Assembly: GCF_001866075.3 (NCBI RefSeq)
Contig: NZ_CP063356.1
Coordinates: 2,470,164 to 2,534,163 of the forward strand
DNA length: 64,000 bases
Direction of reading: 5' to 3'
Origin: Anaerobacillus isosaccharinicus
Lineage (GTDB): Bacteria > Bacillota > Bacilli > Bacillales > Anaerobacillaceae
The notes below the pieces were generated by a model. It had not been told where the DNA came from and did no database searches. It saw only the letters and a program-made list of their open reading frames with translations. The translations under genes and the position numbers were made by a program. Below, piece after piece: positions 6,570 through 63,527 of the stretch. Each line of letters starts with the position of its first letter. The first letter of the stretch is position 1.

Positions 6570-8507
6570 GAGCGACCGAGCCTAGGTTGCAACATATAGT
6601 GGGTGGAATTCCCACCGAGCAAGAACTAGCCATTCACTCGTAGCGAGTCTTGGAGGATGTGGAGTAATTCATGTCTTTAAGCGTAGACAGTTAGATAATG
6701 GGCCGTAAGCCAATTGGTTGAAGGGATTGAGCTCCGAAATACCAAGTCAAGAGGGCTGATGTAATTGTCTGTACAGAAAGCAATACTTCTACTAACGTAA
6801 TGGCAAGATAGTAGAAGCCTCTTCGGAGTCGATGACCTCGGCACGTTATACATTGATATGTTGCAGCAACTCGGGAGATCCTATCGGTCTTTCTAGAACA
6901 ATTTATAGAGAGTATGGCAAAACAAGTGATAAAAAATGAGTAAGCCAAACGCCGCATAGGAAGTCGGATAACTGCGTAGTACCAATGAAGTTAGGTAATT
7001 CTGATGGAGGAAAGGCAGTTACCTTATCATTGCCCTTATGGGGAAACATTTACTACACACAGAGGTAGGCGATTAAATGGAAACAAAACTAGTAAGGATA
7101 GCAGAATTAGCAAAATCTCAACCAAAAATGAAGTTTACATCACTAGCACATCTTCTTGATGTAGAGGCACTCAAACAGTGTCATTATGAGTTACCTAGTA
7201 GAAAAGCACCTGGTATACATCAAACCACAAAAGAAGAATACGAACTAGACTTAGAAACTAATATTTCTGATTTAGTAAAACGCATGAAACAGAAAAGTTA
7301 CCGACCTATACCGGTTCGAAGAACCTATATAAGTAAACCGGGGACGAAGATTAAAAGACCACTAGGTATTCCCGAACATGAGGACAAAATTGTCCAAAGA
7401 GGGATAGCTAAAATCTTAAATGCTATATATGAACAAGATTTCATGGATAGTTCCTTTGGTTTTCGCCCGAAACGAAGCTGTCATGATGCCTTGAAAATAC
7501 TGAACGTCTATATCAATACGAAATATACTAACTATGTTGTAGACGCAGATATTAAAGGGTTCTTTAATAATGTCGACCATACATGGATGATGAGTTTCCT
7601 AAAACACCGAATTGAAGATCCGAATATTTTGAGAATTATAGCTAGATTCTTAAAAGGTGGATATATGGAAGAAGGAAAACTATTTAAAACCGAAGATGGG
7701 ACCCCTCAAGGAGGGATCATTTCTCCAATTCTAGCAAACATCTATCTCCATTATGTACTAGACTTATGGTTTGATAAGGTTGTAAGAAAACAATGTAAGG
7801 GGCAAGCGTACATTGTTAGGTACGCAGACGACTATGTATGTTGTTTTCAAAACAAAGACGATGCAGAAGCATTTTATCGAGCATTAATTAAACGCTTGGA
7901 GAAATTTAACTTGGAACTAGCAGAAGATAAAACGAAGATCATACCATTTGGGCGATATGCGGAGGAAAACTGCAAGAAGAACGGTGGAACAAAACCGCCT
8001 ACCTTTGACTTCCTAGGATTTACTCATTACTGTAGTAAAGACCAAAAGGGGAAATTCCGAGTAAAGCTTAAATCAAGTAGTAAGAAAATGCGAGCGAAGC
8101 TCAAAGAGTGTAAAGAGTGGTTGAAGGCTAGTCGAACAACCAATATTCATGATGTAAAGAGCAGGTTAGACCGCTCATTGGTAGGATACTACAACTACTA
8201 TTGTGTAACGGACAACATAAAACATGTGAGTAACTTCAAAGACAAAGTTAGAAGACTATTCTTTAAATGGATGAACAGAAGAAGCCAGAAGAAGTCATTC
8301 AACTGGGATAAATATGTACTTTTCCTAAAGAAATTTCCATTCCCAGTGCCAAGAACAAAAGTCAGTATTTTCGAACTGAAAAGAGAGATTAACTATATTT
8401 TGTAAGATGATAGGGAGGAGCCGTGTGCGGTAGTTCCGCAAGCACGGTTCTGAGAGGGGTACGGAACACAATCTGCCGAAAGGCAGAAAGGTTCCCTCCT
8501 ACTCGAC
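6570..8507 (+). mobile_element. Complete group II intron (1938 nt)
   Basis: The 5' end begins GAGCGACCGAG at 6570 and the 3' end is TACTCGAC at 8507. Both boundaries follow from an empty-site comparison: left flank GTCAGACA plus right flank CC(A)ATGAAAGTTCAC rebuilds the uninterrupted repeat seen at 33297-33320 (GTCAGACACCGATGAAAG). About 500 nt of structured leader (domains I-III) precede the maturase at 7077; a domain V hairpin (8418-8450, AGCCGTG...CACGGTT) and domain VI (8461-8503) follow it. It is intact and potentially mobile. Confidence 0.9.
7077..8405 (+). CDS. ltrA: Group II intron reverse transcriptase/maturase
   Basis: A 442-residue intron-encoded protein. In order: N-terminal RT0/1 segment (PSRKAPGIHQTT), RT2 (KIKRPLGIPEHEDKIVQR), RT3/4 (FGFRPKRSCHDAL, VVDADIKGFFNNVDH with a catalytic Asp), RT block GTPQGGIISPILANIYLH, the YADD catalytic box at about residue 253, thumb, and maturase domain X (SRLDRSLVGYYNYYCV). 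There is no C-terminal HNH domain. It promotes splicing and reverse transcription of the intron it sits in. The frame is full length, with all catalytic Asp residues present. Confidence 0.95.
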   Translation: METKLVRIAELAKSQPKMKFTSLAHLLDVEALKQCHYELPSRKAPGIHQTTKEEYELDLETNISDLVKRMKQKSYRPIPVRRTYISKPGTKIKRPLGIPEHEDKIVQRGIAKILNAIYEQDFMDSSFGFRPKRSCHDALKILNVYINTKYTNYVVDADIKGFFNNVDHTWMMSFLKHRIEDPNILRIIARFLKGGYMEEGKLFKTEDGTPQGGIISPILANIYLHYVLDLWFDKVVRKQCKGQAYIVRYADDYVCCFQNKDDAEAFYRALIKRLEKFNLELAEDKTKIIPFGRYAEENCKKNGGTKPPTFDFLGFTHYCSKDQKGKFRVKLKSSSKKMRAKLKECKEWLKASRTTNIHDVKSRLDRSLVGYYNYYCVTDNIKHVSNFKDKVRRLFFKWMNRRSQKKSFNWDKYVLFLKKFPFPVPRTKVSIFELKREINYIL

Positions 8508-10147: not shown

Positions 10148-10198
10148 GCACTGTTTGGATAGTCTTGAAAAATAAATGAATTGAGGAGGGAATCTAAA

Positions 10199-10939
10199 TT
10201 GAGTTTAAAAAGTCTTGTTCACACTTATTTCCGTTTTAAAGCAAAATTAATGGTAAAGAAAAATACGAACGATCGATCTTTCTATCGCCCTAGCAAGCCA
10301 ATGAATACATGGACGGTCGCCTTTTTAACGACAGCCGGTGTTCATTTGAAGACACAGCCAATTTTTGATGTAGAAGCAGGAGATCATACTATTCGAAAAC
10401 TACCAGATACTGCAACAAAACAGGAGTTAATGATTACCCACACTCACTATGATACAACAGATGCAAATGAAGATATAAATTGTGTCTATCCAATCGATAT
10501 CCTACATCAGTTAAAAGAAGAAGGCATTATTGGGGACACTGCGAAAACTCATTACGGATTGATGGGATATATACCAAATACGAAACCTTTGATAGAAGAA
10601 TCGATCCCCCTTATCATTCAACAACTAAAAGAAGATGGTGTTGATATCTTGTTAGCTTCACCAGGCTGATATATTTGTCATCAATCCGTGGGATTGATAC
10701 AAAAAGCTGTTGAAAAAGCAGGTATATCGACAATTTTAATCACTCATCTTCCTGAATTAACAGAGAAAGTTGATCCCCCAAGGGCACTTCATTTAAAGTT
10801 TCCACTAGGAAGAAGTTTTGGTGCGGCCAATAGGAACGATTTACAACGGAAGATTGTTGTTGATATGCTAAATGCCATTGTAGAAATGGATGAAACTGAA
10901 AAAATTCGTAAACTCCCATATCGGTGGAGGAGAGATTAA
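10199..10939 (+). CDS. Probable selenoprotein: glycine/betaine/sarcosine/D-proline reductase selenoprotein B family
   Basis: Two ORFs join into one 246-codon frame interrupted only by UGA (10667-10669, codon 157). Read as selenocysteine, the UGA gives SPG-U-YICHQSVGLIQKAVEKAGI, a U-x-x-C redox motif placed where family members carry Sec or Cys, followed by the expected helix and a TILITHLPE strand. A 13-bp hairpin starts 4 nt after the UGA (separate entry). The N-terminal half (THTHYDTTDANEDINCVYPID, HYGLMGY) is typical of the GrdB/PrdB-like superfamily. The start is TTG at 10199, 8 nt after GAGGAGGG; an earlier TTG at 10181 overlaps that site. The alternative is a simple nonsense mutation, but motif and hairpin argue against it. 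Substrate unknown; the family uses Sec for reductive cleavage or thiol-type chemistry. Confidence 0.82.
10674..10703 (+). promoter_or_regulatory. Candidate bacterial SECIS hairpin for UGA at 10667
   Basis: ATCAATCC (10680-10687) pairs perfectly with GGATTGAT (10691-10698) around a GTG loop. A lower stem TTTGT (10674-10678) / ACAAA (10699-10703) continues past one bulged C. The loop starts 19 nt after the UGA and its first base is G, both within the known pattern for bacterial SECIS elements. Confidence 0.75.
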
Positions 10940-61861: not shown

Positions 61862-62018
61862 CACCAGACTATTCGAAAAAAACATATGACAAAAATAGTA
61901 ACATAGTTGTTAAAGAAGAAGAAAAAAGTTATAGTCCATATAGAGGTATTTTCAAGAAAAGTACAATCTTTCATAGAAAATCGATACTAGTATAATTACT
62001 TAATAAGGGGAAGGTAAA

Positions 62019-62555
62019 ATGCGAAAAATATTAGCAGTAACTTTTCTTGTTTTCTTAGTGAGCTTAGTAGGCTGTGGATCAGAAGAAGACAAAAAAGAAG
62101 TTGTCCTTGATGGGGGAAGCCAGTATAATCAGGCAAATTTTGATTTGGCGCTTTTAGATACAAACGGCAATGTACAAACGATTACTCCAGACGGAAAAAC
62201 AATTTATGCTTATTTTACAGGGATTGGCTGACAAATTTGCATTACTCAGCTAGTTGAGCTGAACAATAATATTGATAAATTTCCTGGTGTTAAGATATAC
62301 GCAATTAGCTTGTCTTCTCCAGATGAGCACAGCCAATTACAAGAAGCATATAAGCAACAGTTAGAACACTTTGAATTTTTTACTGACTACCAAGGTGAAT
62401 TTGGTGAACGGTTTGGTTTTATTGATTTAGAGGCAAACAAAGTTTATCGCGGATATGTAGGTGTAAATCCAGCCACAACAAATATGGTCATTGAAATTGA
62501 TTATCTAATTGGTGACAATCTTAAAAAAGTGATAAAGGTAATGGAAGAATTGTAA
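62019..62555 (+). CDS. Probable selenoprotein: redoxin (AhpC/TSA-thioredoxin-like) lipoprotein with U-x-x-C motif
   Basis: Two ORFs form one 178-codon frame broken only by UGA (62229-62231, codon 71). Read as Sec it gives IYAYFTGIG-U-QICITQLVELN, where thioredoxin-like lipoproteins have strand, then C-x-x-C, then helix. The rest fits the fold: VKIYAISLSSPDEHSQL, FEFFTDYQGEFGERFGF and YVGVNP. A signal peptide with lipobox LVGC (Cys19) places it outside the membrane. A SECIS-like hairpin follows the UGA (separate entry). GGGGAAGG precedes the ATG. The alternative, a nonsense mutation exactly at the redox Cys, is less likely. Confidence 0.78.
62246..62262 (+). promoter_or_regulatory. Candidate bacterial SECIS hairpin for UGA at 62229
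   Basis: TCAGCT (62246-62251) pairs with AGCTGA (62257-62262) around the 5-nt loop AGTTG. The loop begins 21 nt after the UGA and has G as its second base, as in the bacterial SECIS pattern. The stem is short, so support is moderate. Confidence 0.6.
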
Positions 62556-62560
62556 AGAAA

Positions 62561-62603
62561 AATCTCTTCAGGCTATCTAAGTAGCCTTGAAGAGATTTTT
62601 TAT
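62561..62603 (+). terminator. Rho-independent terminator
   Basis: AATCTCTTCAGGCTA (62561-62575) pairs with TAGCCTTGAAGAGATT (62582-62597, one bulge), then T run. Confidence 0.9.
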
Positions 62604-62716
62604 TTTTATAAAAAAACTTAAAATATCAGCAAACGTCTAATCACATTAAGTAAGAACTGAATATAGTGATCTTAAGTGGTGGATACCACAATAAATAAAA
62701 AGGAGTGTATGTAAAC

Positions 62717-62818
62717 ATGGCTCACGCTCACGGATTAGGTGCAGGATTTGCGTTAATCGTAGTATTGTTTATCCTTTTAGTAATTATTGGGGCTTCATAC
62801 GTAGGTTACGGCTACTAA
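62717..62818 (+). CDS. YjcZ-family sporulation miniprotein, second copy
   Basis: 33 residues: MAHAHGLGAG, a hydrophobic helix identical in most positions to the 6392-6487 peptide, then GASYVGYGY. AAAGGAGTG is 9 nt upstream. It likely inserts in a spore membrane. The two copies differ by an extra GY at the end and a few core substitutions, so they are diverged paralogues. Confidence 0.85.
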   Translation: MAHAHGLGAGFALIVVLFILLVIIGASYVGYGY

Positions 62819-62830
62819 TATGATGCTTCA

Positions 62831-63326: not shown

Positions 63327-63527
63327 ATGTTAACAAACGTTGGTATTCCAGGTTTAATTTTAATTTTAGTTATTGCTCTAATTATTTTTGGTCCAAAAAG
63401 GTTACCAGAAATGGGAAGAGCAATTGGTCAAACTTTGAAGGAATTTAAAAAGTCAACTCGCCAACTAACAGAAGGCGATGATGACAAACCACTAGAAAAA
63501 ACGCAAGAGGCAAGTAACAATCTTTAA
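63327..63527 (+). CDS. tatA: Twin-arginine translocase subunit TatA
   Basis: 66 residues: one membrane helix (about 6-20), the [14 protein letters not shown] hinge and amphipathic helix ([14 protein letters not shown]), and an acidic tail. This is the TatA/E pattern. AAGGAGG precedes the ATG. It is followed 21 nt later by an nrfD-like gene, so it probably serves export of a folded cofactor-bearing subunit of that respiratory complex. Confidence 0.93.

Follow-up and report, generated by a model that had tools for sequence, protein, structure and literature searches.

We analysed a 64-kb stretch of DNA from Anaerobacillus isosaccharinicus (hereafter the window), which sits within a single 5.23-Mb contig. 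The frame at 62019-62555 is broken by a single internal stop, a UGA at codon 71 in the context FTGIG-U-QIC (Table 1). The original prediction had taken this frame for a selenoprotein gene with the UGA at the first residue of a U-Q-I-C motif, and the frame, its limits and the position of the UGA were all correctly described. A chemotaxis-receptor-like gene on the same strand ends about 157 bases upstream of the start of the gene. The terminator-like hairpin that follows the gene was recognized by its fold, and a consensus scanner listed no terminator at this place. Further downstream, a very small hydrophobic ORF at 62718-62820 (+), which begins MAHAHGLGAGFALIVVLFILL, resembles by eye the YjcZ-type small proteins of bacilli. 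Elsewhere in the window, group II intron matches occupy 6606-8507 (+), with RF02005 (6606-6838) and RF00029 (8416-8507) flanking an ORF at 7077-8405.

Table 1. Features of the candidate selenoprotein gene (positions in the 64-kb window).
Feature	Position	Strand	Basis
Ribosome binding site AAGGGGAAGG ahead of ATG 62019	62005..62014	+	Sequence
Candidate selenoprotein gene, 178 codons plus TAA (62553-62555), one in-frame UGA	62019..62555	+	Orthologs; PF00578, 33.3 bits
Predicted signal peptide with the lipobox LVGC at its end; lipid modification predicted at Cys19	62019..62075	+	Sequence; lipobox conservation
Putative active-site motif F-T-G-I-G-U-Q-I-C, codons 66-74; TxxxUxxC replaces the peroxiredoxin PxxxT/SxxC	62214..62240	+	Residue conservation; alignment
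UGA, read as selenocysteine 71 (predicted)	62229..62231	+	One internal TGA in 80/80 strong matches; place read in 67
SECIS-like hairpin, 6 bp, loop AGTTG, within the QLVEL codons	62246..62262	+	Conserved pairing in 67 members
Arg144 codon, aligning with the peroxiredoxin catalytic Arg	62448..62450	+	Invariant in 30/30; alignment to solved peroxiredoxins
Intrinsic-terminator-like hairpin with T-rich tail, just 3' of the gene	62558..62606	+	Fold -23.1 kcal/mol, z -8.0

The surroundings of the gene include, by eye, a TatA-like small protein (63327-63527) and, past the window end (L012:1712-6639), genes for an NrfD-like protein, an ArrA-like molybdoenzyme and an FeS subunit, which score under their cut-offs, and for a TorD-like chaperone; the ArrA-like protein scores 1109 bits against a cut-off of 1600. 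This TatA-like/ArrA-like cluster is perhaps a respiratory oxyanion reductase. The ArrA-like operon lies within about 4 kb downstream of the gene in four of six genomes of the genus (its own, G001, G003 and G006); the sequence retrieved around the gene in the other two and in related genera did not show it. For this reason, a functional tie to this operon was not used as evidence. Beyond the genus, the fetched stretches revealed no conserved neighbourhood, and the surroundings therefore point to no electron donor or substrate.

It had also been argued that two UGA-x-x-Cys genes within one window make chance nonsense mutations unlikely. Both genes are indeed present, but our scan of long read-through frames in the 64 kb returned 19 frames split by UGA, of which 4 have a Cys close by and 2 the UGA-x-x-Cys form (UGAs at 10667 and 62229), so that their co-occurrence is by itself only a modest argument against chance. 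The other gene (10181-10939, +) is, judging from its domain match, of a known selenoprotein kind, GRDB: its read-through product matches PF07355 at 38.7 bits against a threshold of 22, in the part before the UGA. The folded stretch around this UGA has a z of -2.69.

The selenocysteine reading was said to stand or fall with a decoding system, and the genome was found to carry one. It has genes for SelB and SelA, a SelD-like protein with AIRS domains and its own in-frame UGA in the motif GG-U-GCK, and two tRNA-Sec genes that are identical over 97 bases (L010:9085-9181 and L011:7719-7815). The set that characterizes selenoprotein-making bacteria (SelA, SelB, SelD and tRNA-Sec) is complete, SelD being assigned by its AIRS domains and motif. 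The SelD-like gene begins upstream of the listed ORF L010:15664-16626 (minus). The tRNA-Sec gene is usually present in one copy; here the copies lie 137 kb apart, each at the end of a 291-base repeat (95% identity), and one is about 2 kb from selB. The same genome holds a further UGA redoxin (L115; G000:C1:316674-316913, minus) with the motif FLRGTF-U-PNC, in which no lipobox was seen; from its sequence it looks like a cytoplasmic Prx-like UxxC type.

We then collected the relatives of the gene. Six of the seven genomes of the genus, its own included, have it with one TGA each; the seventh genome is 62% complete. Searching 397 genomes of the order with the single protein turned up 71 places, spread over 66 genomes, with E no higher than 1e-5. 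The sequence was read at 70 of these places: 67 have U-x-x-C with the UGA and three are other redoxins (L062, L083 and L075). We did not count as members four places that lack a stop and belong to other redoxins: G126, G345, and a second place each in G365 and G241. Three of the four are those just named, and the one in G241 was judged from its table row. The 67 members, all of which have U-x-x-C, are the basis for the motif, lipobox, hairpin and tree counts given below. A profile made from 30 members and run against the same 397 genomes gave 80 matches in 76 genomes at E of 4.6e-35 or less, each with exactly one internal TGA; these were counted from the table of matches, and the letter-by-letter reading covers the 67. 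Among the matches listed, the next one stands at 1.3e-18 and has no stop. A weaker match of this search (G241:C10:827712, E 1.1e-15) contains a TGA plus a TAA. When all 135 candidates of the gene's own genome were scored, 62019-62555 was the one strong match.

No Cys ortholog was seen among the matches listed for the 397 genomes, at a depth of 9 scored candidates per genome, where weak Cys relatives could be missed. In more distant homologues, a Cys stands by eye at the place of the UGA (CQAC in L111, WCPVC in L075 and L083). The expectation that homologues have a redox residue at codon 71 is thereby borne out, with TGA in all the strong matches and Cys in these distant ones. SelB is encoded in 76 of the 76 genomes with the family and in 180 of the 397 genomes of the order overall; the chance of such a co-occurrence is 1.3e-31, a figure that ignores kinship and serves as a guide only. 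The tree of the 67 members mostly tracks the GTDB family codes (17 changes, the minimum possible being 15). Because bias from the query had to be avoided, we also searched named genomes with a profile that starts after the UGA. It gave 20 loci, all 20 with a UGA at that place: 16 come from Bacillales (Anaerobacillus, Evansella, Salipaludibacillus, Alkalicoccus and bins of Bacillus sp. and Alkalicoccus sp.) and 4 from actinobacterial bins; 8 duplicate members already among the 67 and 12 are new. The protein of the actinobacterial loci (L100-L103, from two Candidatus Microthrix, one Actinomycetes and one Acidimicrobiia bins) is larger and contains WUPPC and QLVEL; it is another UGA-containing relative. 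In a sample of the phylum (398 genomes, 9 candidates scored in each), matches at E up to 1e-18 came only from the genome of the gene itself and from a second one within the order. A first scan of genome contigs with the single protein as query gave no match. Two weak matches were found on plasmids, both with less than 30% identity, and the Metabacillus one is a Cys form. Within the genus, dN downstream of the UGA is 0.14-0.39 and lies below upstream dN in 15 of 15 pairs of genomes; dS exceeds 1 in all 15 and is near saturation.

A hairpin of 6 bp with the loop AGTTG had been noticed 14 nt past the UGA, and it is present as described, with TCAGCT at 62246-62251, the loop at 62252-62256 and AGCTGA at 62257-62262. 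Taken from a single sequence, it counts for little (z of -2.69 over 23 nt and -0.95 over 48 nt); the argument comes from its conservation. The hairpin is built of the codons for Q-L-(V/G)-(E/Q/K)-L and occupies the same place without gaps in the 67 members, where the inner five pairs are possible in 67/67 and all six in 60/67; 98.1% of the hairpin cells are paired. When 54 nt are folded, the inner five pairs appear in the minimum-energy structure of 61 members, and the hairpin is missing from that of the other 6. The Gln and last Leu codons covary synonymously: CAG goes with CTG in 47 members, CAA with TTG in 16 and CAG with TTG, a G-U pair, in 4, while CAA with CTG is never found. Elsewhere in these genes, 54% of Leu codons are TTA or CTT, neither of which occurs at the two Leu positions of the hairpin. 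For the 61 distinct rows, none of 500 shuffles attained the observed number of paired cells, that of cells changed on both sides, or the covariation score; the two remaining pair measures were unexceptional (pairs changed on both sides, 500/500 shuffles; further pair types, 383/500). Slid controls of the pair count were far lower. Mapped on a quick tree, the changes number 7 for the Gln codon and 8 for the Leu codon. A tree-aware sign test, which used starred branches and this quick tree with its long-branch warnings, had 5 independent pairs, too few to get to 0.05 (median p 0.0625, with 4.5 in the same and 0 in the opposite direction).

Bacterial SECIS elements are hairpins close 3' of the UGA with a G among the first two loop bases. 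The present hairpin agrees with this rule, its loop lying 20 nt past the UGA and its second loop base being G in 67/67 members; the Rfam SECIS families gave no match up to E 10. In L115, the corresponding hairpin reads GCAGTT-AGTTC-AACTGC and adds one more compensated pair; in all four actinobacterial loci it reads GCAGCT-GGTCG-AGCTGC. In 54-nt minimum-energy folds of these five sequences, the hairpin formed only in L102 (1/5).

We next considered the protein itself. The proposal of an extracytoplasmic lipoprotein is supported by the lipobox, detected by motif in 66 of the 67 members and by eye in the last (L032, LQAC). Pfam AhpC-TSA (PF00578) matches at 33.3 bits against a gathering score of 26, and is also over this score in 6/6 relatives. 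No NCBIfam model reached its cut-off for the 62019-62555 protein or the six relatives, and the protein itself had no NCBIfam match at 1e-3; among 30 members, models matching at E up to 1e-3 were thiol peroxidase (26 members), AhpC (24), SelL-related (17) and ResA (9). Invariant in 30/30 are Cys19, Thr67, Sec71, Cys74, Q77-L78-V79, L81, S97, D123, R144-G145 and G165; in the set of 67, residue 79 is Gly rather than Val in two members. Cys19 and Cys74 are the only Cys residues of the 62019-62555 protein. When aligned to solved peroxiredoxins, Cys74 falls on the peroxidatic Cys, Sec71 on the Thr/Ser three residues before it, Thr67 on the Pro and Arg144 on the catalytic Arg of the peroxiredoxin active site. 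The typical signature PxxxT/SxxC is absent, TxxxUxxC standing in its place, and the catalytic Arg is kept. In an AlphaFold2 model (17 sequences, Sec folded as Cys; mean pLDDT 85.6, 142 residues at 90 or above, residues 1-32 below 50), a helix at 72-83 starts right past residue 71. All of the best 50 PDB matches listed belong to the peroxiredoxin family (PrxQ/Bcp, AhpC-type and others), with TM by query of 0.55-0.68, the top match being a PrxQ (E 3.6e-8, TM by query 0.67). The motif had been called thioredoxin-like; the U-x-x-C is there, but both sequence and fold are nearer to peroxiredoxins.

Several other readings of the UGA have to be weighed against selenocysteine. A nonsense mutation in a dead gene, or a sequencing error, would also leave a frame with one stop, and G306, among the 80 strong matches, is only a partial one; yet a single internal TGA recurs in every strong match from 76 genomes, at the same place in the 67 read, and the sequence downstream of it is under purifying selection and forms a compensated hairpin, so that a pseudogene can be practically dismissed. 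Only slightly more credible is a short secreted peptide that ends at the UGA, the remainder being rarely made: the upstream 70 codons with their lipobox could be made alone, but it is the downstream part that is the more conserved (lower dN in all genus pairs) and that carries Cys74 and Arg144. The UGA might instead be decoded by near-cognate read-through to Trp or Cys, giving a selenium-free redox protein, for which the Cys of distant homologues speaks. We consider this highly unlikely in view of the presence of SelB in every genome with the gene, a comparison that ignores kinship, and of the tRNA-Sec, selA and selD-like genes; moreover, TGA closes 7 of the 50 window frames that are 150 codons or longer, in a mechanical list to which the split frame at 10181 also belongs. 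We rejected all three of these readings.

A fourth reading is compatible with selenocysteine and concerns what the protein does: it may be mainly a protein-disulfide reductase or isomerase, ResA/StoA-like, and not a peroxidase. A UxxC at the start of a helix is the arrangement of TlpA and ResA, the PxxxT/SxxC signature is lost, the NCBIfam ResA model matches some members and the next gene in G006 encodes a WCPPC redoxin. The ResA scores are however far below the cut-off, more members are matched by the thiol peroxidase and AhpC models, the fold search puts peroxiredoxins first and Arg144-Gly145 stands at the place of the peroxiredoxin Arg. We regard this function as a serious possibility, somewhat short of an even chance.

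UGA 71 is thus very probably read as selenocysteine and, as the related sequences suggest, kept with the same codon in many related bacteria. Leaving the substrate aside, we are confident that the product is a lipoprotein with selenocysteine in a Prx-like redox site. From the Sec gene set, the conserved UGA, the hairpin, the lipobox, the predicted fold and the peroxiredoxin-type Arg, all of which are computed, we infer Sec insertion, export and a catalytic cycle. SelB with Sec-tRNA would decode UGA 71, aided by the hairpin directly downstream, and the protein would be exported and lipid-anchored via Cys19, which would place its peroxiredoxin-like domain outside, at the membrane surface. Its only redox pair would be Sec71 with Cys74, switching from selenol and thiol to a selenenylsulfide and back. 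A peroxide or a disulfide would be attacked by the selenolate or, with help from Arg144, by Cys74; a U71-C74 selenenylsulfide would form, and an extracytoplasmic thiol reductase would reset the pair. That the main substrate is a peroxide is a guess with roughly even chances, favoured because of the invariant Arg and the fold. Protein disulfides are a plausible but less than even candidate for this role, kept in consideration because the UxxC is present and PxxxT/SxxC is lost. More speculatively, and rather doubtfully, the family could be a Sec-obligate lineage of extracytoplasmic seleno-peroxiredoxins in Bacillales, occurring in 76 of the 180 sampled genomes of the order that have SelB. Sec at the former Thr place would have become so necessary that no Cys form survived, and the proteins might protect the outer side of the membrane while the cell respires with metalloids or oxygen as acceptors.

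If the selenocysteine reading is true, many Bacillales gain a selenium-dependent enzyme outside the cell membrane, and a clade seen in the Sec form only makes the question of why selenium is used, and not sulphur, a testable one. Gene-finding programs that treat every UGA as a stop would break the 62019-62555 gene in two or miss it. Almost all selenoproteins have numerous Cys homologues, and gene finders that filter by these may miss families without them (PMC12013277). In Bacillales, a survey of 2006 counted 3 selenoproteins in 3 families (PMC1794560), and the main text of a 2025 paper on Anaerobacillus and selenate (PMC11944866) does not contain the word selenocysteine. In the literature searched, as far as titles and abstract openings go, the protein is not described; a prior mention in a supplementary table is possible.

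With PrxQ/Bcp and AhpC, the protein shares the predicted fold, PF00578, the catalytic Arg and a Cys at the peroxidatic position (Cys74). It differs from them in having Thr67 and Sec71 in place of the Pro and the Thr/Ser of PxxxT/SxxC, and no Cys besides Cys19 and Cys74. The SelL-related model (NF040769), despite its matches among the 30 members, stays at 23-36 bits in the 4 of 6 members that it matched, where the cut-off is 120, and leaves the 62019-62555 protein unmatched. ResA and StoA of Bacillus are extracytoplasmic thiol-disulfide oxidoreductases, and the family would have in common with them a membrane-anchored, thioredoxin-fold redox protein outside the cell. The scores are low in both cases (ResA, 17-28 bits against a cut-off of 170, 4 of 6 members matched; StoA, 19-23 bits against 210, 2 of 6 members matched), and, unlike ResA and StoA, the family protein has the peroxiredoxin-type Arg-Gly (Arg144-Gly145).

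The closest counterpart is a predicted selenoprotein family that appears as 'Prx-like thiol:disulfide oxidoreductase' (PF00578, UxxC/UxxU) in passages of PMC9312934 and PMC13188914, and as 'Prx-like 1' (pfam00578, UxxC) in those of PMC2398784. As far as these passages describe it, this family has in common with the 62019-62555 protein the PF00578 domain and a UxxC with the Sec first. The word lipoprotein is absent from the main text of PMC9312934 and PMC13188914, and their passages name no Prx-like member from Bacillales. Compared with the family as presented there, the protein stands apart by its predicted lipoprotein anchor, the TGA in 80/80 matches with no Cys ortholog seen among the 397 genomes, and TxxxUxxC combined with the peroxiredoxin Arg. 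By domain and motif, the protein is thus to be placed with the Prx-like kind, and what seems new, within the literature searched, is its lipid anchor, the lack of a Cys ortholog in the sampled genomes and its spread in Bacillales.
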